From: Bugula neritina
Lineage: Eukaryota; Bryozoa; Gymnolaemata; Cheilostomatida; Bugulidae
NCBI GenBank assembly: GCA_964035545.1
Contig: OZ037767.1
Span: 1,430,680-1,494,679 of the forward strand
Length of the DNA stretch: 64,000 nucleotides
Direction: 5' to 3'
Part shown: positions 3,360 to 58,300 of the stretch, one piece after another
Layout: the number at the start of each line of letters is the position of its first letter
Numbering within the stretch: the stretch's first letter is position 1
Position numbers and translations under genes: made by a program
Notes under the pieces: generated by a model
What the model was told of the DNA's origin: nothing
What the model saw: only the letters and a program-made list of their open reading frames with translations
Databases searched by the model: none

Positions 3360-4313
3360 TTAGCTTGTGGTCTCATCTGAGTCGTACTGTTTTCGGAAAC
3401 AATCGCCAACAGGAAAGAAATCCCAGCATCTATTATTATACATTTCCCAAACGTATGTTTCCTGGCCTGTGTACTCCGTATCCGGTTTATTTATCAAATG
3501 CATCAAAAAGAACCTAAAAAGTTACCAATAAAAATGTTAAAAATTCCATAAATGCATATAGAGTGCTAACTATAGCAATAATATTCACTTAAATTAAAAG
3601 ACTGGTGTGTAGCTGCAAAATGTTTACCATAACTCGACTAGATTACGCAATAATAAAAATGATAAAAATATATCATGTTTTTCCAATAAGGAAAGAGTAA
3701 AATAATGACATGGAAATAAGTAGTTTCTTACATGTAGTTTGCAAAGTTGTGTTCTTTCATAACATGCCTTTCAAACCCGTGTGGATGTTCGTCAAAATAG
3801 TCCTTACCAATGCCGCATATGAAGCAGCTTGACTGTAGTATAAATAAAACAATAGGAGTTCAATAAATAAACAAAATATACAGCACAGAGCATACTTCAA
3901 GCTGAAGACAAATCACACGTATTAGTAGGGAAATACATTTATTACTTGAATAAAGTTACAAACATACCTCCATATCTTCCTTTACTTGTTCTAATTGACT
4001 TCTTAATTCTCCAAAAGCATCGATAATTAAACCTAAAACATGGTGACAATGTTTTCTGTTAACTCACTGCAAGAATTGAACCCAAGTACAATGAAGTTTG
4101 TACTTAATCAAGCTATGTACTTTCCAAGATATAAAATACAATCAAAACTCAATTACCTTGAATGATGGCAAGGAGGATAACGATGACAAAGAAGAAGAAA
4201 GAAATATCAAAGATATTCCTGAAGACCTCTGAAGGATCTCCATCTGCTGATTCAATCTCATCTCCGATTCCTCCCCCAGCCCTGACACCAGTGTGCAGGT
4301 GGAACACAAAACA
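3360..4313 (-). CDS. RyR: RyR exons 97-100: pore, selectivity filter, S6 and zinc-binding C-terminal domain (about residues 4924-5081)
   Basis: Exons: 4157-4313, 3968-4032, 3732-3832, 3360-3513. Exon 97: [20 protein letters not shown], the selectivity filter GGGIGD being invariant in RyRs, then S6 ([20 protein letters not shown]). Exon 98: [20 protein letters not shown], the S6 extension that carries the cytosolic gate. Exon 99: [20 protein letters not shown] then ERHVMKEH, giving the Cys-Cys-His-His zinc site of the C-terminal domain. Exon 100: [43 protein letters not shown], ending DSDETTS and stop. The last few residues are less conserved, as in other RyRs. Confidence 0.97.
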
Positions 4314-7300: not shown

Positions 7301-10300
7301 ATCCTCCAAACTGGTAGGTTCACCAAGGCCAGACGGGGTTGTATAAGACTCAGGAGGGGGTAGGCAGTGGATTCTTTCATCCACCACTTGGGTTTGGGGT
7401 TCTCCCATCATCATAGCCAATATCCATTTGAAGAATGTGCTGATGAAAATTGAAATTTATAAAACTAATAACTAATTGACTGTAATTTAATAATAGTAAG
7501 GCTTTTAGATTCAAGAGATACCTTTATAAATAGAGCACTTTCAAGTTACTAACCAATCAATACAGCGGATAATAAAAATATAAAATAAAAACTTACCAAA
7601 TTATAGTGAAGATGAGTTTCAATATAAACACAGTTGATTTTTTCACAACTTGAAGTAGGGCCATCAACAACTGCGTGAATGTCATGGAGCGTAGAGTTGA
7701 AACACCGTGTTTAATATTGGTGACGGTTAGTAAGCCAAGGGCAAACCATAGGCCCGCCCACATGGTAGAGATGCAAGTTTTTGTGCCTTCCCACACAAGG
7801 CCGCTGAAATGCACAGGAAATCTGAATTAGTAAAAGTTGAGAGAAATATGTGAGATAACTTTGAGTAGGCTGTTGGGTAGAATAGTGAAAACTAGTTACG
7901 AAGATGTCAAAATATATGCAAAAAGAAACAGTTACGGGAAGAAAAGAAAACTATGTGGTGCAATGAAGTCTGTTGACCAATCAGAATGAGAGAATCAAAA
8001 GTTGTCTTTTCAACAACTGAATTAGTGTATAATCAAAGCTTTTTATAGGTGAAGGTAAATTTGGTTTAATAAAAATCAGAGAGTTGAGAAATTATAACAG
8101 TTAAATGTATTGAAATAGAAGCAAGGTGTGTATAATCATCATAAATACCTGTTATTTTTAAAGCTGAAAAACACAAATAACTGCATTACCAAGTAATCAT
8201 CAATACTGCCATTTTCAACAGGTGCAAAAGTTACGAAATCAAAAAAACCTACATGACAAAATAAGTGTTTTAAAGCCTGTAGGCTAGCTTACATATGCTG
8301 CTTTTATCCGGCAACCCACAATAAACATAAAGTACAACATAATATAACATACACAGTAGATATTTGTTCCGTATATCCAGCCTGAGCTCTCAATGCTTTA
8401 GCATGTGCCATACGCAGATCTTGTTCCTCAGCACTGATACTAGTAGCGTGCTGCATCTATCAGAATAACACAAGTGGGTAACTATCAGATACACTGTTAT
8501 ATTCAATGTAATACGTCATGTCAAATAAATTTGTCATTTCAAAAAGATTTAAATAAACTACACAACCAAGCCGTAGCAAATGGCTGATAAAACAAGCAAT
8601 AAATTAAGTTTTGCAAATTCCAACCTCAAATATTGTGTCTTCACAGAAACCAACAAATGATTCAATCTTCTCGTTATCTCCCTCTTCGTTGACGATGTTG
8701 TGAAGGAAGTAACGTTTAGATTCCTGTATAACACAACATATACAATGTAGAGAGTAACATATACATATACAATGTAGAGAGTAACATATACATATACAAT
8801 GTAGAGTGTAACATATACATATACAATGTAGAGAGTAACATATACATATACAATGTAGAGAGTAACATATACATATACAATGTAGAGTGTAACATATACA
8901 ATGTAGAGAGTAACATATACATATACAATACTGAGCGTACACTAGTTTATACTCACTTTGATTTGTGGTTTCTCCCACTGATTGATATGGCTCTGTGTAA
9001 TCTCAAAATAAACTCTTTCTATTCTCCCGGCTGACCCCATAATTTCTATTCTACCCAAATATGGCTCAAAGTAGTCCAGCACTGACTTGGCTTTCTCCAA
9101 GAACCTTTCCAGCCTACAGAATGAGTGACACTCAAGTCTAAACAATTTCTCTACCACCAATGTAATAATAGCTCACCTGGGGTCACCAGCTGGGTTTAAT
9201 AACAGCTCACCTGGGGCTACTAGCTGGGTATAGCAACAGCTCACCTGGGGCCACCAGCTGGGTTTAGTAATAGCTCACCTGGGGTCACCAGCTGGGTATA
9301 GCAACAGCTCACCTGGGGTCATTGGGCATATGCTCGGCCAGATTTGTGAGAAGCAGAGCGACGTTGAATCCAATGTCTTTGGCCGGATTGTGGAAACGCT
9401 CCGTGAACTCAAGGAAGTCTACTTTACCGTCTTTATTGGCGTCAACACACATCATGATGTAGTCAATTTCCTCTCTGTTGATAATTATATAATATAATAA
9501 ATTACTTTGGAACTTTCATTATATTACATTTTAGACAAAGTTTAATTTAGCCAAAGCATTTGATGTTGACATTATTATAAACAACTATTATTATTACATT
9601 TGTAACATTAAATGAGAAGTAGAGAATAGAGAAAAATATCCAAATCAATAAAAAAACAATCAGTACATTACAATATATCACCTAGTAATGTTGTCATTTC
9701 TGTGTTAAAATAAAGTGCAAAAAGTATAATAGACTATACAGTTGAAAAGTAATAGTATATACTAGATATACATAAACTACTGACAATATCGATATCTGTT
9801 GTACAGAACATGCAGTAGTAAAGCGACGTGAATTACAATATCCAAGAAGTAGACATCTTAAAAGATATATTTTGTTCAAGAGTTGGTGAGATTAAAACTC
9901 CTTCACAAAAGAAAGATGCTAATTCGAGAAAAGTCATCAAATATTCGCATATATAATCTAAATTCCAAATGACACTCCACATTAATTGTGGAAAGACAAC
10001 TTCTAAACCAAACAAAACATTCTATAAAATGTTTGAACAGATTTTACAGCCAACTCGAGAAAGGTGCCCAGAAAAGTATGAGCTACACAACGTCGTGGTT
10101 ATAAAATAAAAACACTGATTTCAAATAAAAGTTGCTTTGCACGTACAAGTAATATGCTTGCCCATGCAGTAGTGAAGCGTGATAGCACTGTGGCTGTGCT
10201 AAGAGATGAGAAGAGAGAACAGAAGAGATAAAAAGTGTAGAGTGTAGAGACAACCTTCAATGTACTGGTTTAGAAAAACATTCAAAACATCTGACTTTTT

Positions 10301-13300
10301 AAATTTGGTAATCATTCAGCATGTAGTCTTGAATAAGATGAATCGAACTGTAGCTAGCAATAAATGGAGTTACAGAATTACATTAAATAAAATATATTTG
10401 AATATCAACATCACAATAATATATATTTATGTATGGGGGCAAAGCAGATTGGGGACTCCTTGGAGCACACTGTAACCAGGGAGGTATGCACAGGTATCAC
10501 TCTAACCTTATGTTCAAAGTGATTACAAATTAACTTTTTACTTAATGACACGGAGAAAACTCTAATATTGTGGAGACAACAAGAGAGGTGAAGGGATGAA
10601 ATTAGGGAAAGGAAAGCTTAGGGGATGTAAGCTGACAGACATGGTGAATAGCCCCACGTGCAGTGCTTTCTTACTCTGAGTAAACTTTCATGGAGGCCAT
10701 AGCCTCACGGAATTCCTTGTGCGAGACGTTACCGTCGCCATTTTGGTCGATGGCCTGTGATAAATACAATGAAAGACATTATTTAGACTGTACAAACCGT
10801 GCATACAACTTCTGGTGATACATGGCAATGCGGAATTCCTTGGGGGAAATGTATCCATCTTTGTTTAAATCATACTCCTGAAACACGGTGAACAAGAGGG
10901 AACGATTCTCAATGCTGAATAAACGCGTATTTTATTTTATGTCAACACAAAACCAAAAATACATTTCAACAATGAATAAAGCTCCAATGACAGAAAGGGG
11001 AAACAACTCCAAGTTGGTGGACATGTTGTATAATATGACTACAATTACCAGGAAAGCTTCAGAAGTTGTCATATCCTTCATTTTAAGGAATATATCAAAG
11101 AACTTGAGGATCATCTCAAAGTTAGCAGACGACTCTACCAGCGTGTCAACCATCTGTTTGCCGATGGGACCATTCATCACATTTCCTGTAAAACAACCAG
11201 AATCAACTTGAAATGCTGAACATCTATATAGGATTGCTTAAAATGATGATTTAAAATACAGAGAGCAAAGCATGTTTCAACACAGACACTGTTATTTTCC
11301 TACCTTCCAGCATAGAGAGCAGCATTATCATCATTTCCTTCTGCAGATTCATGAATTCTCTCAACAGCTCCAACTGCTCGGGATCTCTCGACAGTTTGTC
11401 TTGCATGTGTGCGAAGATGAACAGAAAACCTCCGACAGCGTCCCAGAGACGGCTGTGCGCCAGAGTCAGCTGATTTCCTTGACACGGGCCCTGTAACAGA
11501 CAGAGATGTTCGCAAATAATTATTATTGTACTACAAATGTTTGTAAAAAAAGTTCAAAAGTTAGTAGCCGATATTTGAATGAATTCATAACAAAATGAAA
11601 TGCACGTTGGTGTAAACATAGCATTACAAACCCAAATTGGTAAAACACACACCTGGATGTAGAATACACACCTGGATGTAGAACACACACCTGGATGTAC
11701 TCAGTGAGGGCAGCAAACAGCTGTTTGCCGACTTTAATAGCTCTGATGAAGTTTGCTTTGCCCGCCTCGTCGATGGTGTCTTTGCCGGAGTAGTGCCAGT
11801 AGAAGTCCATCATGGACTCCTGAATACGGAGGAGATAATCCACTGTGCTGATGATAAGGTTGACTGTTGTGTTATTCCCTACTTGTGTTCGCAGATAGTT
11901 CTGCCAGTCTAGAGAATACAGAAATAGACTTGGAGATAGAAAATTAATATAATGTGATTTGACAGAAAGTAAAAGTAAAACATAAAAAGTAAAATATGGA
12001 AATGAAATATGAAAATATAAAAATAGAATATAGAAAAAACATGCAATGTTAAAAATAACCTGAAAAATTATAAAGATGTAATTTTTAATTACAATAAAAA
12101 TCTCACATTTTATTGATGCATAACTTTTCATGGGATTAACTTTAAAATAACAGAAATACAAAAAATCTTTTTTCTAAAAACAGATCAAGTGAAAATAAAA
12201 GTCAACAACAATGCTGTAACAGATGCTCCTAAGCAACGGCCTTCAACTTACTAGCATTATGACCTTCACACAGCAGCTGTAGAAACCTGAACAATTTACA
12301 CGTGAAGTCAGCATCTTGGAGGTTTTCCCCGGAGTTGCTAGATGACCCGTCAACACTGACTACACCAAGACTTTCCGCTTTGTTTGTTCTTTCAAATGCA
12401 TCAAGGTCAAGGACACTGTAACAACGTATTTAGGTCAACGACTTTCATGTTGTATAACCTAACCTTCATACTGTGTAACCTAACCTTCATACTGTGCAAC
12501 CTAACATTCATACTGTACAACCTAACCTGCGTACTGTATAACCTAACCTGAATACTGTGTAACCTAACCTGCACTGTTGCATGAAGCCAGACATGGCAAT
12601 GAAGAAGCCTACGTCTTTCTTTTCCTGCAAATGTTCCAGCATGTTCTGTTGGACATCAGCGTTACCTCCCAACAGCAAGGCTATGCCACAGTCAATAGTG
12701 TGAGACACCATAGGACCAGGCACTCCCTGCAACCCACACCAACACATTATATAAGACTCTACGGAGTGAAGTGAACAGCATTTAGAGCATCACAAGAGAA
12801 AGGTCAAAGGTTAAAGGTAGAGTAACGATACCTTAGACGCACTGATGTAGAGCAGCAGCATCTCAGAGGCAGCGCGGTTTGCCAGTCTACCTTGCTCAAA
12901 CAGCAGCTTCTGTTTTTGCATTTCTTGCTCCTAGAGAAGAAACCACAACAACCAACTATACATCCTCGTTAAAGTTACAAGGCTAGGTAAACTGTGCACA
13001 CAACTACGAGCTATCAACACACATTTACCTGCAGATTAACAGACATTTTACCTGCGTATCAACTCTCATTTCACCTTTGTACCAATAAATTTTTTACCTG
13101 GATTATATGTTTACTAATAGCAATGCTATACAAGCACAAGGTTTTGGGGTGGAATAAATTATATTATGTAAAGTTTGCTAGTTTTTTTAAAAATAATATA
13201 ACAGTTGTCTTTTACTTGAGAAAAAATATGTGAATAGAAAATTATCAAAAATAAAATAATTATTCAGGTATAGGCGTAAAAATAATATTGAGTAGAGACA

Positions 13301-16300
13301 GTTATAGGCCTAGTTATAGTACTAGTTAATTTAGTCATACAAAATTACAATATGATTACAAATACGAAAAGTGCTAAATTCAACAGCAGAAAATATGCCA
13401 AGTGATTTGTGATCCTCAACAACAAAACCATGGCATGAAGTAACTAACATTTATTAGCCGACTTGTAGCAGTAAACAATTATACATTTTATAGTATATTA
13501 GCAACTATGCTCAATATTACAGTGAATGCCTGAAGTTATGCTCAATATTACAGTGAACAACTGGAACTACAGCTTTTAAAATATAAATTTGAAAGTGTAC
13601 TCTTTACAGCATTACAGTGAACATTCAAAACAACACTCAATAGTACAGTGAACATCTGAAACAACATTCACAGTGATTATCTGATGCTAACAGCAAGGGC
13701 TTACCTTTATATTTGTGAGGTGCATCTAAGATGTATGACATAGATTTATCAATATAATAAAGCGTAGCAAACAATTACAAAAACTATAAAATTCTTAAGG
13801 TTGCATGTGAAAGTAAAAGATTTCTGGAAGTTAACAATGAATAAAAAAAATCAAAACTAACAAAATGGTCTGTTAAATACATAATCAGTAGGCTAACAAA
13901 AAAGCTCTCTCATTTTTCGCACTCCAGTGTAAGAGCAACAGAATTTTTATTCTAAGAAAGTGACGGCTAAAATGGCCAAAATTTGTGCCAGTAGTTAGAA
14001 TTATGCATTATGTTAATGAAAGTAAATAGTTGCGTCTCAAATAGCCGTAATATTTATAAACATTTACCTGGAAGGAGAGGGTCTCCTCTCCCCCACCCCC
14101 ATCATCGTCTTCGTCGTCCTCATCTTCCCCGCTACAACTTTTACCCATTATATTGGTGAACTCTGCAACGTGAAATATCAAAATCGTTAACAAAGACTTA
14201 TAGCTTCTTTTTTATAAAGATAAACGTCTGCACTAACCTAGGACAGTATAACACCAGTCACTCACGTATGTACAGCTGGTCGTCTGCACTAACCTAGGAC
14301 AGTATAACACCAGTTACTCACGTATATACAGCTGGTCGTCTGCAATGGCGCCTGCACTCTGATCCGCCTGCGCCTGTCTGCTGAGCGCCTGAACGAGCTG
14401 CCGAAGTGGATCTGGAGAAAGAGGAGCTCCCTCTGGTGGCTGTTCGCCTTCTTCAGCTTCATCTTCCCCGTCATCAGCCTAAAAATATATGGTAGTGCTT
14501 TGAATAAAATATCTAACTCGATTGAACTGTAAAATCTTCAACACCAGCTCCCATGAAATTAGGCTGCCAAAATTAAAACCTTGTTTAATAAAATAAAATA
14601 ATATTTAATAAATTGATTTTAAAACAAACTTTGACAGCTTAGCAAAGTGTGAGCTACACAGCTGAATGACCAGATCATACCGTGAGGTCTTCAATAAGCT
14701 TATTCTGATTCCAGTCTACTTTATCGAGCCAGAGGTCTGAGTACGCCGCCAGGAACAAGTTTATAGCTCTGTGGCGGTGCAGGTTGTGTAGAGGCACCAT
14801 TCTGAAGCAGGCCATGACTGCTTTTTTACGCTGAGTAGATATCACCTTCTTCCAGTTAGAGCCCAGCGCAGTGAGCGGGTGCTCAACCTGCAAACCCGCC
14901 AATTTTGTTCAACAATCAACAAGATTAATGGTTATTACAGCTCAGGAGAAGTATTCAAGTTATCATCTCATAAAACTATGAAATTCTGTTTTAAAAGTTT
15001 TTGTTGCTTTGTTTTTTTTATAAAAATTACACAAAAAGCAACTAGTCAACTTTCTATTGTGAAAGTATTGCTGAAAGAGAATTGTGCAGATAGAAAGATA
15101 TTGGACTCGCTGTATACGTGTGATATACATGCATGCTTGAGTAAGCGCGGGTGTGTGGAGCTCATGCACGACGCTATCTGCTGTGTGGGACAGGAAAGCC
15201 TGATAGAAAGAGAGATTATTGACGCAGTGAAATGCCGCAAGTACGAGTAGGAAGTGATGTAATATCCTATTCATCATGCCGAGTTCTACATATATTGTAC
15301 ACATGAATACACAGCATACAGTAGTAGTAGGTGACGTTTGAGCTTTACTATATTGGCAGCCAAAGTGCATTTACAGCAGAGCATTTCCCTACCACGAGCA
15401 CACAACTTCTGTTATACAGAGAGAGGGAAACGCTCTGATGTAAATGCGGTGATAGTGTAGAGAGATACTATGTTTAGAACAACTACCTTTCCCTGATAGA
15501 TTTTTCCTTTCATAATCTTAACACAAAATAACACAACTAAGGTCAACATATACTGATATAACATAGGCTTACAACCTAAACTAAAAATATAAACATGGGC
15601 TGAGTTACTACAACAATATATAAATGAAAAAGCATGAGAAGTAATTACTGGGTACATACCAGATGTAAACCGTAGAGCACTTTAGCGGTGGTCATAATCT
15701 TCTCAATCAACTTCTCCTGAGAAATGAGATTGGTAACCAGGTCTGCCAAGTTGGGCTTAGTTTTCCCCATCTTTAGGTAGAGTGCTTTCTGCCATCTGTT
15801 CTTTGGATCAAACCCCTAACAAACACACAACATCAGCATAGAATAACAAAGATACATGGATTTCAAATTTAAATTCTAAAAATATGCCATTTTGTTAGTA
15901 ATTTACATTTATTGAGTGAAATTATATTATCAAAGTTAAATTTTGTAAAGAAAATTTTTAATTTGTGCCAAGATGAAAAATTACATAGAATAAGAAAGTT
16001 ATACTAAATCAATATTTATGAATCATAATATAACAATACATTCATCAGAGGAAAGGAACCAGTTACATAGAGGTATTGAAGGAACTTTAACGGAAGAGGT
16101 GAAAATCATAACATAACAAAAAGCATACCAATTTTACTCGCCAGAACTTAAAGTACTGATACAAGTAAAACCACACAGTGTATAAGAATTTATTAGTATG
16201 CATTCATGTTGTCACAGAAATGGCTTATAAGATTAAACTGAAACGATGTCAAACTTCTTGATAACATCAACATGGTAGAAGAAAGTTATGTAAATGTAAA

Positions 16301-19300
16301 TATCACGTACTAAAAAGTTTATGGAAATTGAATAACATTGAAATATTTCGCATGCAAATATGCAAGGAGTATAAAAAGATCAAAATGGACTGTTTTCATG
16401 CCATCAAACACCTACCATTGAGTACTTCTGTAACACACAAACAATTATTACCATCGTAAATATTTAGTTTATCCGAGTTTTTATACAAATTTAGTAAAAA
16501 ATAAGCATAACGATTTATAGAATATAATTTATGCAAAAAGGAATGCGAGTGTTTAAAACTTGAAATAATAATTTCAACAAAATTTGCTAGAAATTATTAT
16601 GGAATTGCTTTACCTTGTTGTCAGCTGCAACTGTAGTTCTAAGCAGCTCTTCAATGTCTATTTCTGGCTCCTTCTAAAATTAGTATTTAAAACTCACATA
16701 GAATATCAACATATTTTCCAAGCAAAATCCAATCATTTTGCATTTTCCAAAGATTATGATAATTAAGGAATACTTTACCAATCATCTTGCTAGGTTAAAC
16801 AATCAATAATGGTAGTAGCAAAAGCAATAATCATTTGGTATAAAAAATCTTAAAATTATAATTTGTACCGCAGGATCATACTCACCTAAAAGCAATCAAT
16901 AATTGATAATCAGCAAATAGCAATATTGTTTTTTGAATCAAACATGCACAAAGAATATTTACACATCCAGTAGATAGAAACCAAGAACTCAAAAGCTAAC
17001 TAGAAACAATATATAAACTATACTAGCAACTAGATACAAACCCCACAACACAGACGCATGACCTTCAGCTAACGGCGTTCAATGCAATACCAAAACACCA
17101 GTTGGTTTCCAAAACAAAGAAGGATAAAATAATATCACTGTGAATATAACAAACAAGATAGCTTGAGAGCGTCACAACACACTATCTACTCGAGCTCCAA
17201 CTACGGGGCGTACCAACACACCCCCATCAATACAAAACAATTCGAGCTAACAAGCAGCACTTTGTGAACATGCTCATTGCCATATGAATTATTATACAAG
17301 TTACAACTCAAAGTGACAGAGAGAGAGAGAGAACGATAGTCAAATGAGAGAACATAACTCCAAAGCAGAGTAAATACTAAACCTATCTGTCTCAAATAAC
17401 CAAAATATGTTTAATATTGTGGCAATAAGAGATGACACAAAGAGTAGAGCAGCAGTGATGTAGTAATAAATCATAAAAAGCATGCTCAAGGACAAATATT
17501 ATGAGTATGTAATACTTGTATGCTGACTCATCAACATCAACATTGTTCTATTAATAAGGTTCACAAATTTTCAGCCTTTCGTAACAATTTTCATTTTAAT
17601 TCCAAGCTGTTGTCAATGAGATAGTGATTTGCAAATTAAAAAAATTCCATGAATAATAAATGAAGAATTATATTAAATTTAAACCCAAATACAACTTGAT
17701 GAGTCAACATAATCATAATGTTAAGGGGGGATAATTTGGTAGAGCAAAACTCTGTTATGGTGAGTTGATATGAATCTTCCAGGGAATGGTTATAGCAAAT
17801 GTTGCTCCACAATTTTGACATTACCTGTATAGCATACACATCCAAGGTTTGAGCTTGGTGCTCAATTACCTATAAACAACATTGGTTAATAGAGCACAAC
17901 GCAAGTAATACGTTAGTAATACATGAATGCAGTGATAAAATAATAGGTCTACGACCAACACTTCAAAAGAAACATAAGGGAAAGTTGTTCACCATCTCAC
18001 ACACATTTCAAACAGTGTAGAAAAGTAAATATATAAACAAAACACATGTGAGGGAATTTCATAAGTTCAAATTGAAAACTTTATGCTTTTTGACCAGCCA
18101 TTTGCTAGTAAAGGATACAGAAAGGAGAATTCAAAGAAAAAAATTTAAACAAATAATAAAAACATCACACAACAAAGGAGTAAGAGAGGAAGATGTAAGA
18201 TCTTTCCAGTCTAAGAAGTTAAGTGATAACCAATAAATTGGGTTTACAGGAATGAGTGAAATAGATAACCAATAAGAAATGAGTTTATAAACAAAAAAGT
18301 GTGAGTAACCAATAAGAGATGAGTTTATAGACAAACCAATGAGAGAAGTGTATACAATGTCTGAGTTTAAAGTTTAGAGAAACATCCATTCATAGAATTG
18401 TATTCAACCAATAAGAAAGGAGCTTGTAAAATATCGAGTAACCAATAATAGATTAGAAGAAATAATATAATTTGAAGAGAGTTGTCAAGTCAAATGAGAT
18501 CTTACGCCTTCAATTCGTGCCAGCTATAACAAAAGTCACATGTTATGTACACGGATACTGATAGAAAATTCTAGAACCTAACAGTTGTTGCGCCAACAAG
18601 TAATATTCATGTATAAACCAAGAAAGTCTACATACAATATGGCTATTGAGTGGAACATTCTAGAATATACTCACTTCAATCATCTTCTCCTTGGCTAACT
18701 GAACCAGTTCCTGTTCCGGACCACCGAACACATTCAATCCAATCGGCAGCAAACGCTTGATGGCAGCAACAACCAGACTGGTGAAACCTTCTATAATAAA
18801 CAACAGCAGCTTATAGTAGCAGGTAAGCTTTCTAGCTCTTTGCTCAAAGAAATTGCCAGCATCTCTGTCTTCAAGACACTAAACTCCATCAACTGATGAA
18901 ACACTTAAAAACTCACCCCTCCTTCGAGATTTCTTTTTCCCTCTCTTTTCCCCACCAGAAACTTCTTTCTGTACCGCCACAGCAGATGTGCTGCTACTGG
19001 GCATTATCAAGGTCATGTTGTTGATCTCATTGATGTTGACAAATGTAGTCTCCGCCCTCCGGAATGTCTAAACCAATAGATTGATGAAATAAAATATATA
19101 ACAATAGTGATTTAATTGATCATTCTACTACGAAACTTCAAACATAATCCAGTAAAACCATACAAAGAACTTTTTGTTGGCCAAATAAAAAAAACTTCAA
19201 TCAATTCACGGTCAACTGATGAAGACAGAAGAAGGAAAATGTTAGTCTCAGCTCCTAGTTGAAGAACTCACGTTAGAGGCAGACCAGAAGTTAAAAACTT

Positions 19301-22300
19301 TAGCCACATGTTCAAACAAGATCTCAGCATCAGGATGGGGCTCTTTGATCCACCCCGACCTGTACAGGTCCACGTATCTGATGAGCACTGGGTAAGAGGC
19401 ATACAGGTCTCTCACCATGATCTGGAAATCCTGCAATACGCAAGTCCTTGAGTAACATAAGAGATCATTGAATAACATAAGAGATCATTGAATAACATAA
19501 GAGATCATTGAATAACATAAGAGATCATTGAATAACATAAGAGATCATTGAATAACATAAGAGATCATTGAATAACATAAGAGATCATTGAATAACATAA
19601 GAGATCATTGAATAACATAAGAGATCATTGAATAACATAAGAGATCATTGAATAACATAAGAGATCATTGAATAACATAAGAGATCATTGAATAACATAA
19701 GAGATCATTGAATAACATAAGAGATCATTGAATAACATAAGAGATCATTGAATAACATAAGAGATCATTGAATAACATAAGAGATCATTAAATAACATAA
19801 GGAGAGGTCAACCAAGTATGTAAAAATCAATGTCTCAGTATATCAACTTCTAAAACCCGTCTCACCCAATCATATTTTGTCATACCGACATCACACAAAT
19901 GTATACTACAACAAGGAGACAACTCTAAAAGATGTTTCTATAAAATGTCTTCAATACTGAACCTGAAATATATACATTTTGAAATGCTACAACCGCACTT
20001 TATCATAATATAAAAGGCAAGCTTGATCTCTTCTCTATCTAAACCAACCTCTGTCAGCTGTTCCTCCAGATCTGATGCATTCTCGGAGTTGTTTCTCTTT
20101 TCTGAGCAGTACTCTTCCTCCGCCTTCCGCACCTCCACGGCTCTGTCTCGCAGCTTCTGCGCCATCGGAATGATGTACTCTGTGAGCATGCTCTCCGTGG
20201 CATTGAACAGAATAGCCTGAGTTCTCACTATGTGTAACAATTACAATATATAACAGTATACCATAGTTTCAGCTTGTAGGTTCCTATGCTAATTAAACTT
20301 TTGAACCAACTCAGTGATTAAGCTGTGTGCTGTAGCAGTTAAGAATAGCAGCAATGAAAGTCAGCAATAATTAGTATTAGTTTCATAACACCACAGACTT
20401 CAGAGCCAACTAGAAATGTCATCAGCATGAGCACAAAAGTTTATTATATATATTAAACAACATTATTTGAGCACACAACCTCCAAACAGTATGTAAATGA
20501 CAGCCAAGACATATATGATTATTTTTATACTGCATAAAATAGTGTCAGGGAAACAAACCTTTGTCCAATTCAAAGACCAGAAACTAAAAATATTTTGTCT
20601 GACCTAGATAAAAGTTAGAATTGTCAACTCACTGGCAATTCTGTTCATCCACGGAGCTTCGGCCATTCCGATGTGTTTCTGAATGAGTTTGAGGACATCC
20701 CCGAGGACGGAGTTCATTAGAGCAGACGTCACTGCTGTCACCTGAGTCGTCTGCGAGGAGGAACTGTCTGGGCCAACAGACCACCATTTTGGAAGATAGC
20801 TACAGAATATCACACCAGGGTACACCCACTTTCATTTGGACTGAATTGTATTTGTTTATGACAGAAGACAACTGCTTATTCTAAAATAATTGAATACATT
20901 TAAAGAAAATATGACGCAGGAAGTGTAATATGCAGAAAGACAAACCTGCAGAGCATGGGCAGAGTGACCTCTATTATATGCAGATTATCTTTGTTGTCTT
21001 CCTGCCTCTCTTGTAGCGCGAGATCCTTGATTATATCAGCTATAGTCTCTAGCTCGGGCACACTCTCACCCAACTGTGTCATGATTTCTGTAACATAAAA
21101 TGTGTGAAATGTAATAGCTGTTTGTAAAACAACACTGCACAATATCGTGTTATTTCATGCTTTTCAAAATCAATCATTCTTCAACTCTTTACATATTATT
21201 CAAAGCAAGTATAGAATATAGAAGGTACAGTATAGAGCATAAAGCATAGAGTATAAAGAGTATAGAATATAGAAGGTACAGTAAAGAGTGTAGAATACAG
21301 AGTGTAAAGGGTATAGAGTATAGAGTGTACAATGTAGACTACAACAGGTATGGTGCCAAGTAAAGAATATATAAGTCACAGCATGTATAAAACATGATGT
21401 TGAGATTATAGATAATAAATAATAAAGTTTAGAATACAAGACATATAATATCAAGTAGCTGAAAAGTATAACTAGAAATATCAGGCCAAACCAACCATGT
21501 GCTTCTAGTGAGTGCTCCTGCACCTGATCCATAGGCACCTGGTAGACTATAGAGTGTTTGTTAGCTATGTTATACTTCGGCTCCAAGAACGCCACAGGGA
21601 AACAGGCCGCAAACCCTGCCACACACTCCCCAAGAGCCGGGCGGTGCCTAAAATTTAGAGCACTCAACTATCAACAGTAGAGTGTATTTACTGAGGAATA
21701 TCAGGGTGTTTAGCCAAAGAGGTTAAATTATTAACTCTCTACTGCAGATAAATTAGTTTTCTTGCACAACACAATTGTGGGGAATATAAAACACACACCA
21801 ATTTTTGACTAGGCCTATGCTATAAGAAAATGCACAGAAATCTCGCATATCAAACTTCTATACTATAAGAACTATAATGAGAGTCGGAGAAATTACATAA
21901 TATTCAACTTTCAAGCCTGTAAAGTTAGACATACTTAGTGAATTTCCAAAGATTACAGCATGGAATTTTATATGATTTGCACAGCGCATTTTTCAAAGCA
22001 TTGAGTTCTGGATTTTCCCAAGTATTGAATATGTGATCTTTGAATATTACACACATTTGTTGCAACGATTTGTAAAAGAATAAATGTTAGAAATAGAATT
22101 ATAATGCAACATTATCCATAAAAGCAATAAAATAAGAGAAAGGTATAAAAAATATGATAATATTTTACGAAAGCAGACCCACAACCCTGCAAAGAAAGCA
22201 TTAATTAGGAAAGTTGTCAGAAAAATATACACAGTTAGGTTGAAGCTACTCCTTTTAATTGTAACAATGTTAGTTCACTTTCAGTAGTTCTACTATTAGC

Positions 22301-46300: not shown

Positions 46301-49300
46301 GTCTCAGAAGCTGTGAGAGAGTGAAAACCGTTTAAAGTTGGTACGTACGACTGAGTGTCGGATTGAGTAACAGATGAAGATCTAGAAAATGTTTAGAATA
46401 TTAATTGGTAACTAGCAATTGGCAAAATAAAAAAACTCAAAATTAGTCAAAATAACAACTCACAAAAAGGGTACTTATTTACATTTCCAACAGAAATTAA
46501 AAATAGAGGAAAAAATAAAATGCATAAATTCCAAGCTGCTGTTTTCCTCTCTAATATCATGTTATATAACAATTTCAAGTTTCAATACTAAATATCAAGT
46601 ACCTACACATTTATATTTGCGGTAATAAGATCTAAGGTTTTTTAACTACAGAAAACACAACTTACGGTTTGTTAGCTAAATATTTGTCGTTGCATTTGAT
46701 GGGCAAACTTAGTCTGAGGAATTGAGTTTTAGTCTTAGCTCCTAGAGTACCGTAACTTCTGGAGCCTATCTTTATAGCGGGACAGTTGCTAGAGCTATAA
46801 TTAAACATGAAAACCATCTGATAATCTGATAAATCAGTGATTAGTTAAAGTTTGCTGGCTGCAACTTTGTTCAACACACTTCAAGTTTGCTTCATTCAAA
46901 ATTTTTGTTGACAAAAATCCTACCTTTTCTGCACTCTCGTTACGCTAACGTCAAATAATTCATCACTGGACGGATCAACGAACCGACCTTCACTCCTCAC
47001 GTACCAAAGAGGCATTGGGCGTGTCATGTTTCTGCAAACAATGCAAGTACAGAGAATTAACAATAATCAACTGATTACCAGCAACTAGCTATTAGCAACT
47101 ATTAAGTATAAAGTAAACTATTAACTTGTCAGCATCAACTGGAAAGAAACCAACAAAAAACAACCAAGTAGACATTTTTAGTTTAAACGTTAAACCAAGG
47201 TAAACGCTTGCACGTCAAACATCATTTCCTTGCATCAATCTACAGACGAACACTTGCGTACATCTGCAGATAAACACTTACATACATCTACAGATAAACA
47301 CTTACATACATCTACAGATGAACACTTACATGCAGAATGGCTCATAGCCCTCCTGGAGCCCACAGCAGGTGTAGTATTTAAGGCTATGAGGATCCTGTCC
47401 GTAGTTGATTCTAGCTCTCTGATCAGGACCAAGCATCACTATGGGAACGTATCTATCAGCTGAGATGTCCTTGAACGCTATTTCCTGTCCCGTCATGTCC
47501 ATCATCAGCTCTCCATTCATTGAGAATGTTAAGGTGTGATTGGATAGATCCAGCATGCAGCCGACTATATCTCCCACCTGCCAGGTCTTGCCATATCCTA
47601 TGGCACCACCATGCCACTTTCTAGCCTGAAGTATTGTCATGTCATGTCATTATGACAGATGATGTGTCGCATGTCAGATGAGTCACAAGTAATGATGTAA
47701 TGACGACAGAACAGGTAAATCTGACAAGACCACCAAGCTGCGAGTACATATACAAGTTGGTGTTGATGTAGTACTGGCTTTATAAAAAATTTAAGGCAAA
47801 CCACACTTGAAATCACATTTGACTAACTCTCTTATCTTATAGGTAGAAAAATTATAAAATAACAAACACTAAACCAACGCCATTCACCCGATACTCACCA
47901 CAAACCCGTCAAATACGTAGGCTTCGTTAGACTCTCCAATAGTGTTAACTGGACTACATGACTCTTTAGCCCAGCCCACCCTCATCAGTCCAGCAGTTAA
48001 TATCTCAAACTCAAAGTACCTGTGCATAAAAATAAAACGCTAGAACTACAAATTATGTCATACAAAAATATATTTGGAGACATATTTTAAGACATTAACT
48101 TCAACTATTTCATAAGAAGTATTACTTTTCGTGCATCAACTAACCATTTTCCCGAATTGACAGAGTAGCTTTTGGGGGGTCTTAGAACACGGCATTGTGT
48201 TTTGGCGTCTGCTATTTGCCGCGAAAGGCCTGCAAACATTAAAGGGGGTTAGAAATCATCTCGCAGTAATTAAATATGTAGTAACAGCAGCTAGGGCAAC
48301 GGTAGCAAACCAGAGGGACACGAGTTGTTACTCTCACAAAGTAAATATGTCAGTTTATTCTACGTTAATTATAGAATATATAATTTCAATAGGCCGGGTT
48401 GCTCCTATGTAAAATTTATGGTGGGGTTTAGATTAGAAATTTTCATGAGAAATGTTAGTGTAGAGCTCAAACTGTTTATCAATTTCTTTGACGACTCACT
48501 CACATAAAACACGTGACAGAAAGAAATCTTGGGCTTAACTTAAAGATTTTTATACACCAAGCAAATTTTTATTTGTAGAAACTTATTAACTATTATTAGA
48601 TATTTGTAATGTAAGTTAATGACTAGAACTAAATAAATAAATAGAGCACCATATTGCTGCAAAACAGGTTAAAATACTTGTGCAATTAAAGAGAAACTCA
48701 ACAAATGCAAGAACTTTGATAATTAAGGTGTTAGCATTTTGAAAATAGTGTGAAATGAAAAGAAGTTAGCTACATGATCAGAGACTAAGCTAGAAGCTTT
48801 GTATTTGTTTAAAATGTTTCAACATTGAAAATTAATTAATTATTTTCACTGAAATTTTGACTATTGCAATAATTATTACTAATTACTTAATTCTAAAATT
48901 TGCTTCAACAGAAAACGGGTGTAAAAGAGAAAAACTAAGACCGGTAGAGATTAGTATAAATCTAGTTTTCTACAGACTACATTATTAACAGGACGCTAGT
49001 AAGCTGTGAAAGGTTTCTGTATAAATAGCCTGAGTTAGATAGTCAGAGGCTACTACTGTTAGAAAGAAAGGGTAAGCGGCACACCTCTCGTACCACCTTG
49101 AGCTTCGGGGTTTGGAGGCTCTACATTGTACCCGTAGGCTAGTAGAGTTCTTATGGTCTCACTCGCTGTTTCTCTGTAAAATAATAAATAACTGTTTGTA
49201 CAGATATTTACTCACAGCATACAACACTACTGTACGACTTGATCACTGTCAGTACAACTCACTGACTATGTGACGGACTGAGTAACTGCATGACTAACTA

Positions 49301-52300
49301 AGTACGACTCACTGCCAGTACAACTTACTAATGGCCAGTATGACTCACTGACTATGTGACTGACTGAGTAACTGCATGACTAACTAAGTATGACTCACTG
49401 CCAGTACAACTTACTAATTGCCAGTATGACTCACTGACTATGTGACTGACTGAGTATGACTCTTTTATAGTACAACTCACTGAGTAACTCTATGACTCAC
49501 TGCCAGTATGACTAATTGATTATATGACTGAGTGACTAAATGACTCCGTGAGTGACTCACTGAGTAAGCAGTTGAGTGACAAACTGATTCACTCACTGAT
49601 TCACTCACCTATTCGCCTTCTTGATAGAGGCATCAACCTTAGAGTACGGCACAAGATGGCAGCTTCTCTTATTCTCCGTATCATCACACTGACCGTATGT
49701 CCACCCTTGTCGTATGCGATCCCTGGCCCACACATTGTGTGTGTTCTCTGCTAGCTGATCTACCAGCTCCTCCAGTCTGTCATTCAGTGAGACTCCTGAC
49801 AGGTCTAGAGGCATTGGCTTGTAACCATTGGTCTGCAAATAGCTACAACAACCAATAAGATAGCATCACTGTCTGCAACAACCAATAAGATAGCATTACT
49901 GTCTGCAACAACCAATAAGATAGCATTACTGTCTGCAACAACCAATAAGATAGCATTACTGTCTGCCTAATAGCCAATAAAATAACATTGCTGTTTGCAT
50001 ACAGAAAGTGAAATACAAATTAACTTCATTATAAATATATAAAACAAAGCAATTTTCTCTCTCGAATTTATAACACAAAAAATGCTCAGCACAGTTTTTA
50101 CAAAAATTTAAAAAACACATATAAAAACACACCAACTATACTGTGTGTACATGTATGTATATGTAGAACAGCTATACTGACAGTATGGTATATCACAGTG
50201 ATGAAGGAATAGAATGTAGAACACACAATGTTCAGGTTATATAAAATATAATACCAGAGAAATATTCTATAATACAGCAGGTAGAGTATATAACACAGTA
50301 GGTAGAGTATATAATACAGCAGGTAGAGTACATAATACAGCAGGTAGAGTATATAATACAGCAGGTAGAGTATATAATACAGCAGGTAGAGTATATAATA
50401 CAGTAGGTAGAGTATATAATACAGCAGGTAGAGTATATAATACAGCAGGTAGAGTATATAATACAGCAGGTAGAGTATATAATACAGCAAGTAGAGTTTA
50501 TAAATAATACAGCAGGTAGAGTATATAATACAGCAGGTAGAGTATATAATACAGCAGGTAGAGTATATAATACAGCAGGTAGAGTATATAATACAGCAGG
50601 TAAAGTATATAACACAGCAAACACACACCTGGAAGGTAACTTCTGGTATTTCATTCTGCGAGCTGGGTCAAGGTTATCTACGCTGATGTGATAGCCGAGT
50701 GCTAGAAGAGTTCGGAGAGTCTCAAATGCCAGAGTGATGTCATACTGGCGCTCACTTCCGGGTAACCTCTCAAATGTGGTGAGACAAGGGTGTTTCTTCT
50801 GAATATCGTCTCGGTGCTGCGTGACACAACAGAGATCACAACTCCAAACATTGAATAGCAATAGTATTACATAACTATATTATATGTACATTTAAATTTA
50901 TACAATATATATACTGTACTAATGCAAAGTAGAAAACCACACATGTATAGCACAGTATTGTACAGTAGACAACTCCTAATTTACAAGCATGATAATATCC
51001 AATGTAAATTTAAGTGCATAGCTACAGTGACACAAAGCAAGTATAAACCAAATAAAATGTTAGAAACAAACCTCTTTAAAGGTCCAGCCCTGCTCTATTT
51101 TACCCAAAGCCCAGAGTTCGTGAATATTCTCGGCCAGTTTGTCTCTCACTGACTCAATGTATGACGGCAGTTGAACCTGTTGCAAGTCAAAACTTGTGAA
51201 ATACATGTATGGAGAGTGTGTCTGTGTGTATTATTGGTCAATGAATTAATTGATTTATATATTGATGGGTCATTTGGATAATTACTGGGTCAATCTGTTG
51301 CTATATAAAAATATATTCATTTTATTAAATGAAAAAAATGATCATACGTTTCTTTTTCAGTTTCACTTTACCATGGTATAAGCAGAATACATTGCTGTAA
51401 CTTGATTATAAGTAGTGAGACTAACACAGCTAAGAAAACAAGGCTAATAACTCAAGCCACACAATGTCTAGTAGTGAGTCCATTAATAATAAACATAGCC
51501 TACAGAACTTACATGAGAAGTGTCAATAGGGTTTGGGACGAACACTTGATGCTCCCCAACATACGACGGGCCAAACAGCACGCCTCTATTTACATCTCCC
51601 AAGTTAAAGCATGGCTCAATCTTCAGCTTCTCTTTTGGCAGGAGTGATTCGAAAGTGGGAGCGTAACCCTCGGGTGGACCATGTTTCAATTTGCCGTGTT
51701 CCCCGCCCAACATGAACCGGCAACTTTACAAGTAAAATATATAATATTATACCACTGAAACCATACAACATGTCACATGTATAACATTCAAGTATCTATA
51801 TACAAAAATATTAGCTTAGGAACTGGCAAAAGTCAAGTAGGGACAAAGTCTTTAGCCTGTTTAATAAAAACCCTTTTCATCAGGGGTTCTCACAGGGATG
51901 ACGACTATAAACCGACACACTTTTACTGCATTTCCCATAGAATAAAATGAACAAGGAAACTATAGCGTGTTTTAATACAATAAAACATGCCGCTCACATA
52001 ACACAGAGACTCAGGTACCTGACTTTAGCCGACATGGACACCACAGGGAAAAACATTCCCGTCATGTTGAAGTCTTTCATAACCGCCTTGAGTCTAAATC
52101 CGTTAAGAGAGAAGCTGATGGCCGGAATACTGAGGTCAAGGCAGCAGCCCACTACATCTCCCTGAAGGAATATCAACAAGTGTGCTGTTACAACACTGTA
52201 CTTAGCCAGCCAATCAGCATCCAGTCTATTTATGTACATTTAATTCAATTCGACTGAATGAATAAGGAAATTGGCTAAAACCCATTTCAACTCAGCAAAC

Positions 52301-55300
52301 CAACCTTCTGGAGAATATGAGTTTCTGCGGATCTCACTTGCTTCCTTTTGCCACCTGTCCACAATGCAACGCCGTCAAATGCATACGAATACAAGTCGTC
52401 ACCGAGTCCATTACAACCCCATTTGCTGCCAGTAGCTGGATAAGCCCTGTAACCTTCTATGTTAGCCCAGCCCACTCTGACGTGAGGCGGGGACACGCCC
52501 ACTGCCTCTGTGTGGTCTATCACCACCTCATAATACCACTTCTTGTACATGGCGGCCCCCTCATTGAGACCAATAAATATGTTGGGCCTCATGCTACAAG
52601 GGAAATTCAAATATAGAAACAGGAAAATAATTGTATCTACAAGATTATTCACAGATATTTGAATAAAGGTTATTTACACCTACAAACATAACATTCTTAT
52701 TTTGTTCTAATTACAGTACAAGGTCAACGCATTATAATAACTGTTTTGCGTACATTTGGGGTTATCTAACCTTTTCATCCTATTGTAGACAAGTTCATAA
52801 AAAAATTTTATCACACAACAATCGGGAGTTATCTACCTTCATACTCTCACAAGCTATCCTAAGTTACTACATTACCAAGCAAGTGTATAAAGCTAGTCAT
52901 TTAGCCCCGACTATAAACGTTAGGAGTTGTCCAGCTTTATCGTTGAGCATAAATGCTTTGCCTAAATTGGAGTTATCTAACCTCATCACAGTTCTAATGA
53001 TTTAAGTGAGGAGTTGTCTAACCTTATCACTTTTTGAATAACTAAGTGAGGGGTTGTCTAACCTTATAACTGTATCCACCACTTTAGTCTGCAGCAGGAG
53101 ATCTCTGGAGGGGAGTAAGTTGTTACAGATGAGATTCTGATTGGTCCTCACAGCAATGTCATTCCCAACACAGAGAGAACACAACACCTCAAGCACCTAA
53201 TAAATGCAGGCAAAATGAGGGTAAATATCAATAGTACATATACATGTGTAACTTTACTGGCCGTATCTAATTTATACTACAGCTGGTATACATTACAAAT
53301 TATATATTACATAGTATATATTAAATCTAATATACATATTACATCAAGTACATTTAGTATATAGTATATAATATTTAGCAGTAATTAAAATAAAGTTAAC
53401 GCATCCAGAATATACATCAAGACGAAAAAGTCTGCATTTGTAGCTTTTCTCTAACATTCCAGAAAGCGTCTCATAAATGCAAGTATTTGTATATATTTTA
53501 TTGGATCATACTATTACTATAGTATACAGAAGACTTGATAAGATTAAATTATACTACATAATTAGAGTCTAAAATGTTATCGGTATTCTGTTATATTCTA
53601 TATTAATTTTATATTAGACACAGGGAGTTGCCCCACCTTTGGGTCTCTGCCGTGCTTGTCCAGCAGAGCTATAATACTCTGAATGTGAGGCTCCTTTATC
53701 ATAGTGAGGGCCTCGGGGGAGTCGATGAGTACGCAGTGCAGTACCTTCAGCACCCCCTTACTCGCCTGCTGACTCTGCAGCCTGTCTACCAGCCAATCAA
53801 GTCGCGACACCTGGGCAAACTGAGCACAGTTGGCTCTGTTACCCTGAATCATGGAGGCTGAAACAAACAACATAATCGTTACTCAATTATTCTGATAGAA
53901 AATATGTCCAACACACAGTAAGAAGGAGTTGAGATTTAAGAGACGTTTTTATCAGTTTATTTTTAGAACCACGGGTTGTCTAAAAACACACTTTACTCTG
54001 TTGACACCACTTTACTTCTGGAGCACCTGTATCATGCTGTCACATCTCTCACTATGGCAGCACACAGCAGACATTGCTGTTTAATTAAAAACAACAAAAT
54101 TGAATAACCTAATAAAATCCTACAGTTCAGACTGGCTTTACAAACTTTTGGCTTATATTATAAATATTTCATTCTAAAAATCTAGCATGATGAAACAAAT
54201 AGAAGTATCAAGTTTATAACATTTTCTAGTTTGTGGGCCATGAAACCCACCCAGAAGTAAGTAAAGATAGCTTGAGATCTCTTCATACAGTGTAGCTGCA
54301 TCCTCTCCAGCATAGTTGGCGAAATGACGGGGCGACTTGTACATGCTGAACTGGTCTATGGTATCTAGAACTAGGGCTATCATTCCTTCTTCCTGGAACA
54401 GGTTCTGCCGATTTCTCAGGGCGTGAAGTTTTTTCTGGACATCTTCATAGCCAACTACAATAGAGATTCAGTAAATGAAACTCCCTTGAAGAGAGCACAA
54501 CTTCTAAATTTACTAAGTGCAGTGATGATCAGCACACAGTCAAAGATGTCTATAGAAAGGAAACGTACTGTCAGGGTCAGGTTGAGCAAAGAACTCAATG
54601 AGATCTTGAAGACAGTGAAGTACTTCCTCTAGACTGGCCTTACTCCACGTGTCGGTAGCTCTTTGGTGAGTTCCGCCATCCAACGAGTCTTTGAGACTAG
54701 ACAGGCCTGTAGAGAGTACATAGTACTAGTACTGTATCACCACACTAGTGTATATATAATATAGTATAGTACAAATAATACTAGTTGTATACACTAAAAG
54801 TAGTACTGTGTTGCCACGGTGGTAAATGTGGTGTATGCCAGCGCTAGCAGCGCTGTTACATCGCCACATTAGTAAATATTAGTAGAAGTGTTTCAAAAGT
54901 TAATAAACACAAATTTTAAAACTAACACCTTTTAAGATTGTAAAATTAATTTAAATTATTTAAATGGGAAGAAGCCTTAAATAACCCATACATACTTTAC
55001 TGGAAATGTTGAAGACATCCAATAGAATTATAACCACAACAAATTAAGACGTAATCTAAATTAATCCAGTGAACCTTTGAGCTGTGCACCAAGTCTAACT
55101 AATGTATACCAGAGTAGAGGGTGAAATGAAACCTAGGGAGTCACAGAAAACCTGTCCAGTACAGTAATACTACAGACTAGTGCAGAAGAGTGAAAGAACC
55201 GCCCATCTACTTTACCCATACATAAACTTTACCTGCTGTTGATTTCTTAAGTACTTGGGCTACAAATTATATTATAGAGCAGCTCAGCTGTGTGCCTCAT

Positions 55301-58300
55301 TGTACATTTCACGCTACTTAGTCTATTACCAAACAGAGCCTATCAGATTGAAGGTGACATAACCAGTAACTGTGGGAAGGTACAATAGCATGCATTTCAT
55401 GAGACTAACGTTATTTAGATCTGGTGAATATAGCTAGTGGTTTAGCCAATCCAGTGTATATGTACACATGAATTTGTTAGTTCTACTCCATACATAATCT
55501 AAGTTGAAACTGTTGGATTCATGATATGACATGCTATAAACGTCCAACACAAACTTAAAATTTTTTTCTCTTCCCCCTCTCCTTTTCTCTTTTTTTCTCT
55601 GCTTCTAAACAGAACTGTAAGTGGCTAGCATACAACATTTTCTCGTAAACTTTGAATCAGGTAAGTAAATCTGGTTTGCAGAATCATCAAAAAAGCGCTG
55701 CTTCAACATGAATCAAACTATATTATTATAGGGTAGACAACTCTATATTAATAGAATGATTCCATAAAGAAGATAAATCTTGTAACCCTCAACTATTCAC
55801 CTCAAATAATTAGAGCCTGATTAGTAGCTTCCCATAATGCAATAGTTGCAGACTACCGATTGAATAAACTTATAAAGAAATAATAACAAAATATAAGCAG
55901 AGAGAATTTAGTTTTAAAGAGCCACTTTTATCTTACAATATAATATAATATAATAAGATAATATAATATTAATCCAACAAACAAACCTTCCGTTTTGTAT
56001 AATTTTATACAACTCAACATTTAATATAAAAACGGTACGATGTGTTAGCAATTGGAATGAGCTATTCAGCAACATGCACAGTAATAATATAAATATTAAG
56101 AATACATAGTATAGAGTTGTAGCAACATGTAACAGAATTGTGAGCATGAGCGAGCAAATATTAATTTCCTTAACCAAAAGTATAGCGACTTACACCCACA
56201 ATATAGTGGCAATATGCTTTTGAGATAAACTGTACTATATAGCTCACACATCTCTACAATGTTCATATAAATACATCACATCACTACAAAACTTCTACCA
56301 GTTCACCACTGTGAAATATATAGCTGATTATTTAGTATTAAAAATAATGCTGATAGATTCAGTAGTCTTAGGTTAGATAAGATGTTGGATATACCTCTAG
56401 CAATAAAACATCGGCCTATGATGCATAAAACTCAACTTGTTTTTGACATAAAACACTAAACTTACCTTTAATAAATTTATTGAAAAGGGAAGTACATTTA
56501 CGGATCACAAGTGCCGATCTGGACTCCTCATCCTGAGCTCTCGTAAGTGTCAGTCCGTCATCCATGTGACCTTCCTCTAGCATCACCGACTGCTTCACTT
56601 CAACTTTACCAATACCTAATAAATGGAAAATTACCAATACCTAATAAATGAAAAATAACTACTACCTAATGAATTAGTAAACACCAATACCTAATAAATG
56701 AGTAAACACAAATCTTAAAAAAATTCAGTAAATATTTACTGTATATAGAATAAATATATACATACCACTACTAAAAAATAAGCAAATATTAAAACTTAAT
56801 TAACGAGTAATCACAATACCGAATAACCGATTCAACACTGAAGACTAACCACAAACTCTAAAAATAAAAGGATTATGAGGCAAAATCTACATAAATGTAT
56901 AAACTTCTTGAAAACAAGCCATGTATATTTGCAATAATAAATTAAAATAGAATGAGTAAACGTAACACCTCAAAAATACTATTTACAATAACTAGCCTAC
57001 CTCTCTTTTTGGTCTCGTATGTTTGATAAGATAGCCAGTACCCAGTTGCAGCATGCTGTACAACTACGACTGAGTCACCATATTTAATCTCAGGCTGCCC
57101 CATGCCTTCTTCATCTTCTTCGTGACTTCTCTTATCATCCTAGACACCAAATTAATTGACTAAACCATCAGAATGATGCAACACAAGATTTATTTACAGA
57201 CAAACCATGATAAATTTTATAGAATTGCTAAATAGGAGAGAGTATATCAAATATCACTGCATTTCACCCACCTTACTGTCTCGTAAAATAAAGATAGTAT
57301 CATCATTATTAGATTCTAGTCTGTAGTGAGTCACAAGCCTATGGTCTGAAGTCACACCTAAGAACCTTCCGGAAGTCACGTGTCTAATCCGTACTGGCCG
57401 CCCATAGCCCATAAACCCACCGTACCATTTCACCTTGACATGTTGCATTCTCCACAGAGATCTAGCTTGTGAGCAGACGCCTCCAGTCTCATACATCACA
57501 GATCTATTGTAGAGATCATGCAGCATGTAGCATAGCCTAGTATACAGTATTATTACAGGAGAGAATTTCTGTCTATTTTAAGAAAATATGAATAAGAAAA
57601 AGTTATAATTAATATCATATTCTAATAAGCTATAAAAAACATAACCGTCCCTTAGTCTCTATTTAAACATAATTTCAAGAAATATCTAGTCACCCAAGTA
57701 GTGGTTAAAAGAAAAATATGTAAACCACCATATGATTGGCCAACTATCATTTCAATATGAAAACTATAAAATTATTGGTTGATTTTCAACTCAAACATGT
57801 GAACAGCTCAACGATTGGTTAGAATTTAGATACTAACTCAAACAGATTATCACTGCCAGCCTCAGGCAGAGCAAGGCACTCATCCCCGTGGAAGAAACGG
57901 AGCACGTCTCCTCCAAACACTTGGCCTGCAAAAGTATTTTTGGTTATTAATAATTTTTCACCAAGTTAATGAGTTGCTTCATACTAAATCCTGAATATGC
58001 AACATAACTTAGCCTGCAAACGAACCGAGAGATTTCTGTCTAAGTGCACCGGATGAGACGGGTACCATAGTCCACAGAGTCTGTTGAAATGAGGCTATGA
58101 CACAAGTTCCATTGCCGATGTGCTACAAAGAATTACCAAGTGTAAAGTATTGTATAACTTTCCACAAAGGGAGCTTGCATCAACACCTCTAGATGTATTC
58201 TTATATAGCACATACATCTTACACACATACATGTGTGCATTATCTCTTGAGTGTTAATATATGTTAAAATTGCCAACTAGGTATGACATGGGAAATTAAA

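Follow-up and report, generated by a model that had tools for sequence, protein, structure and literature searches.

Tandem duplication of short segments that include a splice junction recurs throughout the ryanodine receptor (RyR) gene of the bryozoan Bugula neritina, and does so with a bias towards junctions at which AG immediately precedes GT (AG|GT, the bar marking the splice site). The gene lies on the minus strand of the window analysed here, i.e. the whole stretch of 64,000 nt from positions 1,430,680 to 1,494,679 of contig OZ037767.1 (G000:C3:1430680-1494679). With a probability of roughly 0.6, we regard the arrays as 'mirages', namely minisatellites produced by local tandem duplication across exon–intron junctions, the excess at AG|GT sites arising through tolerance of the copies by splicing. 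Analysis with Tandem Repeats Finder (TRF) identified 46 non-redundant tandem arrays with a period of at least 10 bp in the gene, and a copy-by-copy comparison places the splice site within the repeated unit at 15 of 196 junctions, ten of them donors and five acceptors, in 14 of the 98 introns (Table 1). TRF itself counts four acceptors, the fifth (exon 20) having been added from the comparison of copies. The units of these 15 arrays measure 12–56 bp and are present in 2 to 17 copies; in the exon 31 array, the second copy is identical in all of its 36 exonic bases and 11 intronic ones. Arrays also lie close to the donors of exons 19, 33, 50, 55 and 101 and to the acceptors of exons 59, 61, 74 and 94, where the splice site is absent from the further copies. 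An earlier note on this DNA had described splice-site-bearing arrays as recurrent in the gene, which is borne out, although its figure of 15 in approximately 100 junctions becomes 15 in 196; exon numbers herein are those of the present model and differ from those of the note, the two lists not having been matched one by one.

Eleven of the 15 RyR junction arrays occur at AG|GT junctions, such that the duplicated unit carries AGGT, and the proposed involvement of this motif is therefore upheld. The expectation that the phenomenon would extend beyond one gene is likewise supported by a 200-kb stretch of another scaffold (C1, the second region), in which 8 of 78 donors and 2 of 81 acceptors carry junction arrays; of the 9 arrays in a 50-kb part of C2 with 12 strong exons, none lies at a junction of these exons. 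When RyR and the second region are considered together (176 donors), arrays are found at 16 of the 96 donors with AG before GT as compared to 2 of the 80 others (p 0.0014) or, viewed from the arrays, AG precedes GT in 16/18 array donors and in 80/158 array-free ones. The bias is also apparent in the independent second region alone (p 0.013), and for AG|GT junctions of either kind the figures are 17/128 versus 5/227 for all others (p 5.8e-5). Acceptors with an exon-initial GT lean in the same direction, with 5/32 against 4/147 (p 0.01) in one setting and 3/32 against 4/147 (p 0.11) in another. If the interior arrays of RyR are taken to set the expected rate, junction arrays are approximately sixfold enriched at AG|GT donors (8/49 in RyR and 8/47 in the second region, with ~1.4 and ~1.3 expected), whilst the remaining donors (2/49 and 0/31) and the acceptors (5/98 and 2/81) fall within expectation. 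A word-based test that is free of TRF leads to the same result, as 16-base words spanning AG|GT donors recur nearby in 14 of 96 cases versus 1 of 80 for other donors (p 0.001, and p 0.0004 to 0.007 over nine settings), with control matches in other introns averaging at most ~0.5 of 175–179.

Given that arrays are dense and introns short (median 304.5 bp for the 98 introns of the RyR model), some arrays might straddle junctions by chance alone, and the size of the excess depends on the null chosen. Where whole arrays are placed at random within introns only, 0.27 junction-containing examples are expected against the 14 of 46 observed; permitting up to 10 exonic bases raises the expectation to 2.9, and permitting up to 40 raises it to 9.8, at which point the difference is not significant (p 0.09). 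The null judged fairest, because array growth itself lengthens introns, places one single unit in a gene with all arrays collapsed and allows at least 40 exonic bases; it yields 6.6–7.3 expected (p 0.003–0.008). For donors, 10 are observed with 3.3–3.75 expected, whereas the 4 acceptors show no clear excess over 3.4–3.75; the excess is therefore about twofold and located at donors. The random-placement comparison put forward in the earlier note thus favours an excess under the introns-only, 10-base and single-unit nulls, but not for whole arrays with 40 exonic bases. Chance accords with this last result and with the acceptors, but it accounts neither for the single-unit outcome and the surplus at donors nor for the AG|GT bias, which both regions show, and we consider it improbable as a full explanation.

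Arrays are by no means restricted to junctions. They occur in 37 of the 98 RyR introns, of which five consist of more than 70 % array and one of these of 97 %, and 32 of the 46 contain no junction whatsoever. Over 355 junctions, repeat coverage is 0.07 in the first three intron bases, ~0.17 at 60–100 bases and 0.13–0.15 farther in, with a value of 0.005 at 60–100 bases inside exons; on the donor side it amounts to ~0.18 at 40–100 bases, ~0.12 at 150–300 and 0.14–0.18 beyond. The TRF-free word test similarly reveals no peak of recurrence at the junction. Array edges, in contrast, crowd around donors, with 18 in the 30 bases from −10 to +20 as compared to 15 between +50 and +200, a span of 150 bases. 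Both the low junction density and the crowding of edges fit arrays that extend up to donors and a little beyond, without penetrating deeply into exons; beyond ~40 bases, arrays are nearly absent from the kept exons, exons situated inside arrays having been dropped from the model.

These distributions bear on the possibility that splice sites, AG|GT foremost, seed duplication by way of sequence, transcription or splicing, and that introns grow outwards from them as proposed in the earlier note. The excess over the single-unit null, the crowding of edges from −10 to +20 of donors, the mildly higher donor-side coverage at 40–100 than at 150–300 bases and the AG|GT specificity would all agree with seeding. 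It is at odds with the lack of a peak at the junction in either coverage or word recurrence, with the majority of arrays being junction-free, with the absence of a clear excess at acceptors and with the motif content of interior arrays, of which 1/32 contains AGGT in the sense orientation and 6/32 the antisense ACCT (10/14 and 0/14, respectively, for junction arrays). As sense AGGT is not favoured in interior arrays, it is argued against as a general duplication hot spot. Since repeat density is lower at the junction than in the intron interior, splice sites are not apparent as the main source of intron growth, and growth mainly from them was rejected on the coverage and word-recurrence profiles. 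What stands of the outward-growth proposal is an overlap with junctions above random, and seeding of this kind seems to us rather unlikely, if the most credible of the alternatives. As a separate observation, the imbalance of 1/32 to 6/32 within interior arrays hints at selection against stray donors within introns, in small numbers.

Splice dinucleotides are largely preserved in the copies, with GT retained in 27 of 35 further copies from a total of 15 donor arrays, and AG in 23 of 26 from the 6 acceptor arrays (of 9) that could be scored. In 8 of the 10 RyR donor arrays, one or more of the further copies reach the score of the authentic donor, as do all scored copies in 7. This raises the question of how splicing selects the donor at the exon edge when equally strong copies are spaced a few dozen bases from one another. 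Array donors are also stronger than others (pooled p 5e-5; RyR alone p 0.03). One might suppose from such equality of scores that selection keeps the arrays as a source of additional strong 5′ splice sites that help the gene, e.g. through U1 recruitment or alternative-donor regulation. Unit length is, however, a multiple of 3 in just 3 of the 10 RyR donor arrays, so that later copies would mostly shift the reading frame, and neither units nor copy numbers follow a common design; a selected benefit accordingly appears improbable, about on a par with chance. The decay of copies with distance from the exon edge, claimed previously for the arrays as a whole, is seen at exon 24, where identity to the edge copy drops steadily, whereas the other arrays that have at least three further copies do not show it. 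For exon 45, identity is 0.86 between the edge copy and the rest and 0.98 among the rest, indicating homogenised inner copies with the edge copy standing apart; this was not observed at the other 6 of the 7 donor arrays comparable by copy number.

The mirage reading would connect these features as follows. Tandem duplication is active throughout the introns of the gene, as their many arrays attest, and segments crossing a junction would be kept because the exon-edge copy continues to function as the splice site, the added copies turning into intron. Where the unit bears AG|GT, each copy would constitute a strong donor, and copies could be spliced or skipped stepwise with the message unchanged, such that these arrays survive and grow; this is the likeliest reason for their excess. 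Arrays that place stray donors elsewhere within introns would presumably neither survive nor grow.

Several considerations weigh against this reading. Survival alone cannot lift the rate of arrays above that of full tolerance, and more frequent birth of arrays, or their slower loss, would be required in addition. The AG|GT idea arose from the RyR data, which on their own give p 0.046, the second region having been tested afterwards, and for the ortholog-checked RyR donors alone the comparison (7/38 versus 2/30, p 0.14) is not significant. In the second region exons are predicted, without an ortholog check, and at one of the 8 array donors there a later copy was selected by the model, the array starting 75 bases upstream with a unit of 30. 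The difference in donor strength falls to p 0.10 in RyR when the scoring matrix is trained without array donors. Finally, that splicing proceeds regularly in the presence of the copies is a supposition made from genome sequence.

With regard to the gene itself, the residues translated from exons 15–26 align over their full length, with a few small gaps, to solved RyR2 residues 654–1311, and named ryanodine receptors are numerous among the best 120 of 249 protein matches; no published Bugula RyR was found among those best 120. The gene model is home-made, its codon and splice-site parameters having been learned from the window, and comprises 106 exons, of which 1, 2, 29, 32, 46, 47 and 92 were dropped (the two 5′ exons as uncertain and five as located inside arrays); an initial, more lenient model of 211 exons was superseded by this stricter version. 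Across the whole gene, 68 of 98 RyR junctions align without a gap over 16 residues to one or more orthologs. The same holds for 22 of the 24 array-associated splice sites checked, each compared with up to seven orthologs and two introns having had both ends checked, and the check fails for donor 31 and acceptor 63. The arrays could conceivably be an artefact of the assembly or of the gene model, to which the home-made models and the five exons dropped from within arrays lend a little substance. Assembly error, named as a possible explanation in the earlier note, is nevertheless unlikely, as the public assembly, for which an alternate haplotype (GCA_964035465.1) also exists, is described as based on PacBio HiFi reads at ~132-fold coverage with a quality value (QV) of 53.7 (PMC11480708), and together with the conservation of the checked sites this renders an artefact of either kind the least plausible alternative by far.

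Table 1. Arrays with the splice site in the unit by copy-by-copy comparison, the array that makes up most of the intron after exon 50, and the modelled part of the RyR gene. Positions are those of the window.
Feature	Unit (bp)	Copies	Position	Strand	Exon edge	Remarks
Acceptor, exon 8	25	4.2	56608..56713	-	56615	AG|GT in unit
Donor, exon 14	40	2.5	52969..53071	-	53063	AG|GT in unit
Acceptor, exon 20	30	5.1	49846..49999	-	49842	TRF stops 3 bases short; copy comparison puts AG in unit
Donor, exon 20	12	2.2	49583..49608	-	49609	
Donor, exon 24	24	3.9	47238..47331	-	47330	Exon ends in CAT
Donor, exon 31	47	3.3	43774..43929	-	43892	36–38 exonic bases in unit; junction without ortholog confirmation
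Donor, exon 45	32	7	37119..37342	-	37315	28 exonic bases in unit
Acceptor, exon 48	50	1.9	36656..36751	-	36661	Authentic AG|GT, single further copy AG|AT
Donor, exon 54	41	4.5	31901..32083	-	32065	
Acceptor, exon 63	32	2.1	26041..26107	-	26040	Array ends at acceptor; junction without ortholog confirmation
Acceptor, exon 64	30	17.2	25134..25651	-	25138	AG|GT in unit
Donor, exon 82	56	2.1	14225..14344	-	14322	Exon ends in TAC
Donor, exon 85	21	6	12444..12570	-	12569	
Donor, exon 87	19	3.2	11640..11699	-	11691	
Donor, exon 91	34 (68 also given by TRF)		9170..9321	-	9313	
Intron after exon 50	30	36.8	34435..35536	-		97 % of intron; starts 6 bases into intron; touches neither splice site; no splice-site copy
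RyR gene, modelled part			3732..58595	-		99 kept exons, 98 introns

Elsewhere in the window, an open frame of 386 codons at 1405–2562 (+) appears, by eye from its translation, to encode repeated zinc fingers of the C2H2-type, and an 84-bp tandem repeat at 1543–2543 would be the coding repeat of this frame. A scan of the window against Rfam at gathering thresholds returned 0 structured-RNA matches. The assembly searched (215.8 Mb, 295 contigs) carries a mitochondrial COX1 with 100 % identity over 447 residues to that of Bugula neritina, which excludes amphioxus as the source. A COX1 match with internal TGA codons is split by ~2.8 kb (G000:C196:13159-14235 and 17014-17283), suggestive of a mitochondrial intron on a contig distinct from C295; introns of this kind have been reported from cheilostome bryozoans (PMC9240083). 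Additional COX1 matches occur on C17, without TGA codons, and, with TGA codons, on C65, at C6:11174072-11175412 and at C4:5169166, the C6 example lying on a large scaffold and approaching the mitochondrial copy in strength. These further matches may stem from nuclear copies and from additional organisms present in the sample.

The closest known counterpart of the RyR arrays is found in amphioxus, where mirages are described as minisatellite-like tandem duplications across intron–exon boundaries, on both 5′ and 3′ sides and with AG/GT in many units, in Adh3, the globins BflGb6 and BflGb9, troponin C and PGBD5 (PMC3087553, PMC3902484). The same sources report evidence from reverse transcription PCR (RT-PCR) that regular splicing is undisturbed, as well as copy numbers that differ between two haplotypes of one globin, and the Adh3 units are given as 10–72 bp (as cited in PMC3087553). 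The corresponding features in RyR are the authentic boundary inside the array, the retention of splice dinucleotides and the involvement of both 5′ and 3′ boundaries. Whilst the lancelet cases come from a few genes, the bryozoan data cover many junctions in one gene together with a second region, are set against null models, include the AG|GT bias and are known from genome sequence only. No report of mirages in bryozoans was found among the papers listed by literature searches (15 of 297 in one, 0 in another), and 'intron' occurs 0 times in both B. neritina genome papers, which is no proof of absence. Novel aspects are the occurrence in this phylum, the counts obtained and the bias towards AG|GT; the structure itself is already known from amphioxus.

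Introner elements, which are intron sequences that carry their own splice signals and occur as related copies across many introns, resemble the arrays in that the units of the latter also bring splice signals into intron sequence. An introner-like origin was nonetheless rejected, as the units are local and words spanning junctions very rarely reappear in the other introns sampled. A second comparison is with intron gain as described by Rogers, in which tandem duplication of AGGT-bearing sequence creates a new intron, the case from potato extending across an intron–exon boundary; the route has been proposed, with few recent instances proven (PMC4974935). The bryozoan RyR gene likewise has AGGT-bearing segments duplicated in tandem; under the Rogers scheme, however, a new intron arises, whereas here the arrays sit in existing introns. 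With the kept exons, in no case does a single array include the two splice sites of an intron, and on present evidence the arrays are therefore not intron gain of this type.

How introns lengthen and originate is a long-standing question, for which a 216-Mb genome would offer a countable and testable system, were such arrays common in it. We advance only tentatively the broader proposition that duplication coupled to AG|GT junctions is genome-wide and continuing, with approximately 1 in 6 AG|GT donors accompanied by near-identical and equally strong copies and the exon-edge copy nearly always spliced. If this were true, the old AGGT-duplication model of intron evolution would be directly observable in one living species. 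The new quantitative AG|GT pattern could link the mirages of amphioxus to intron gain by AGGT duplication.

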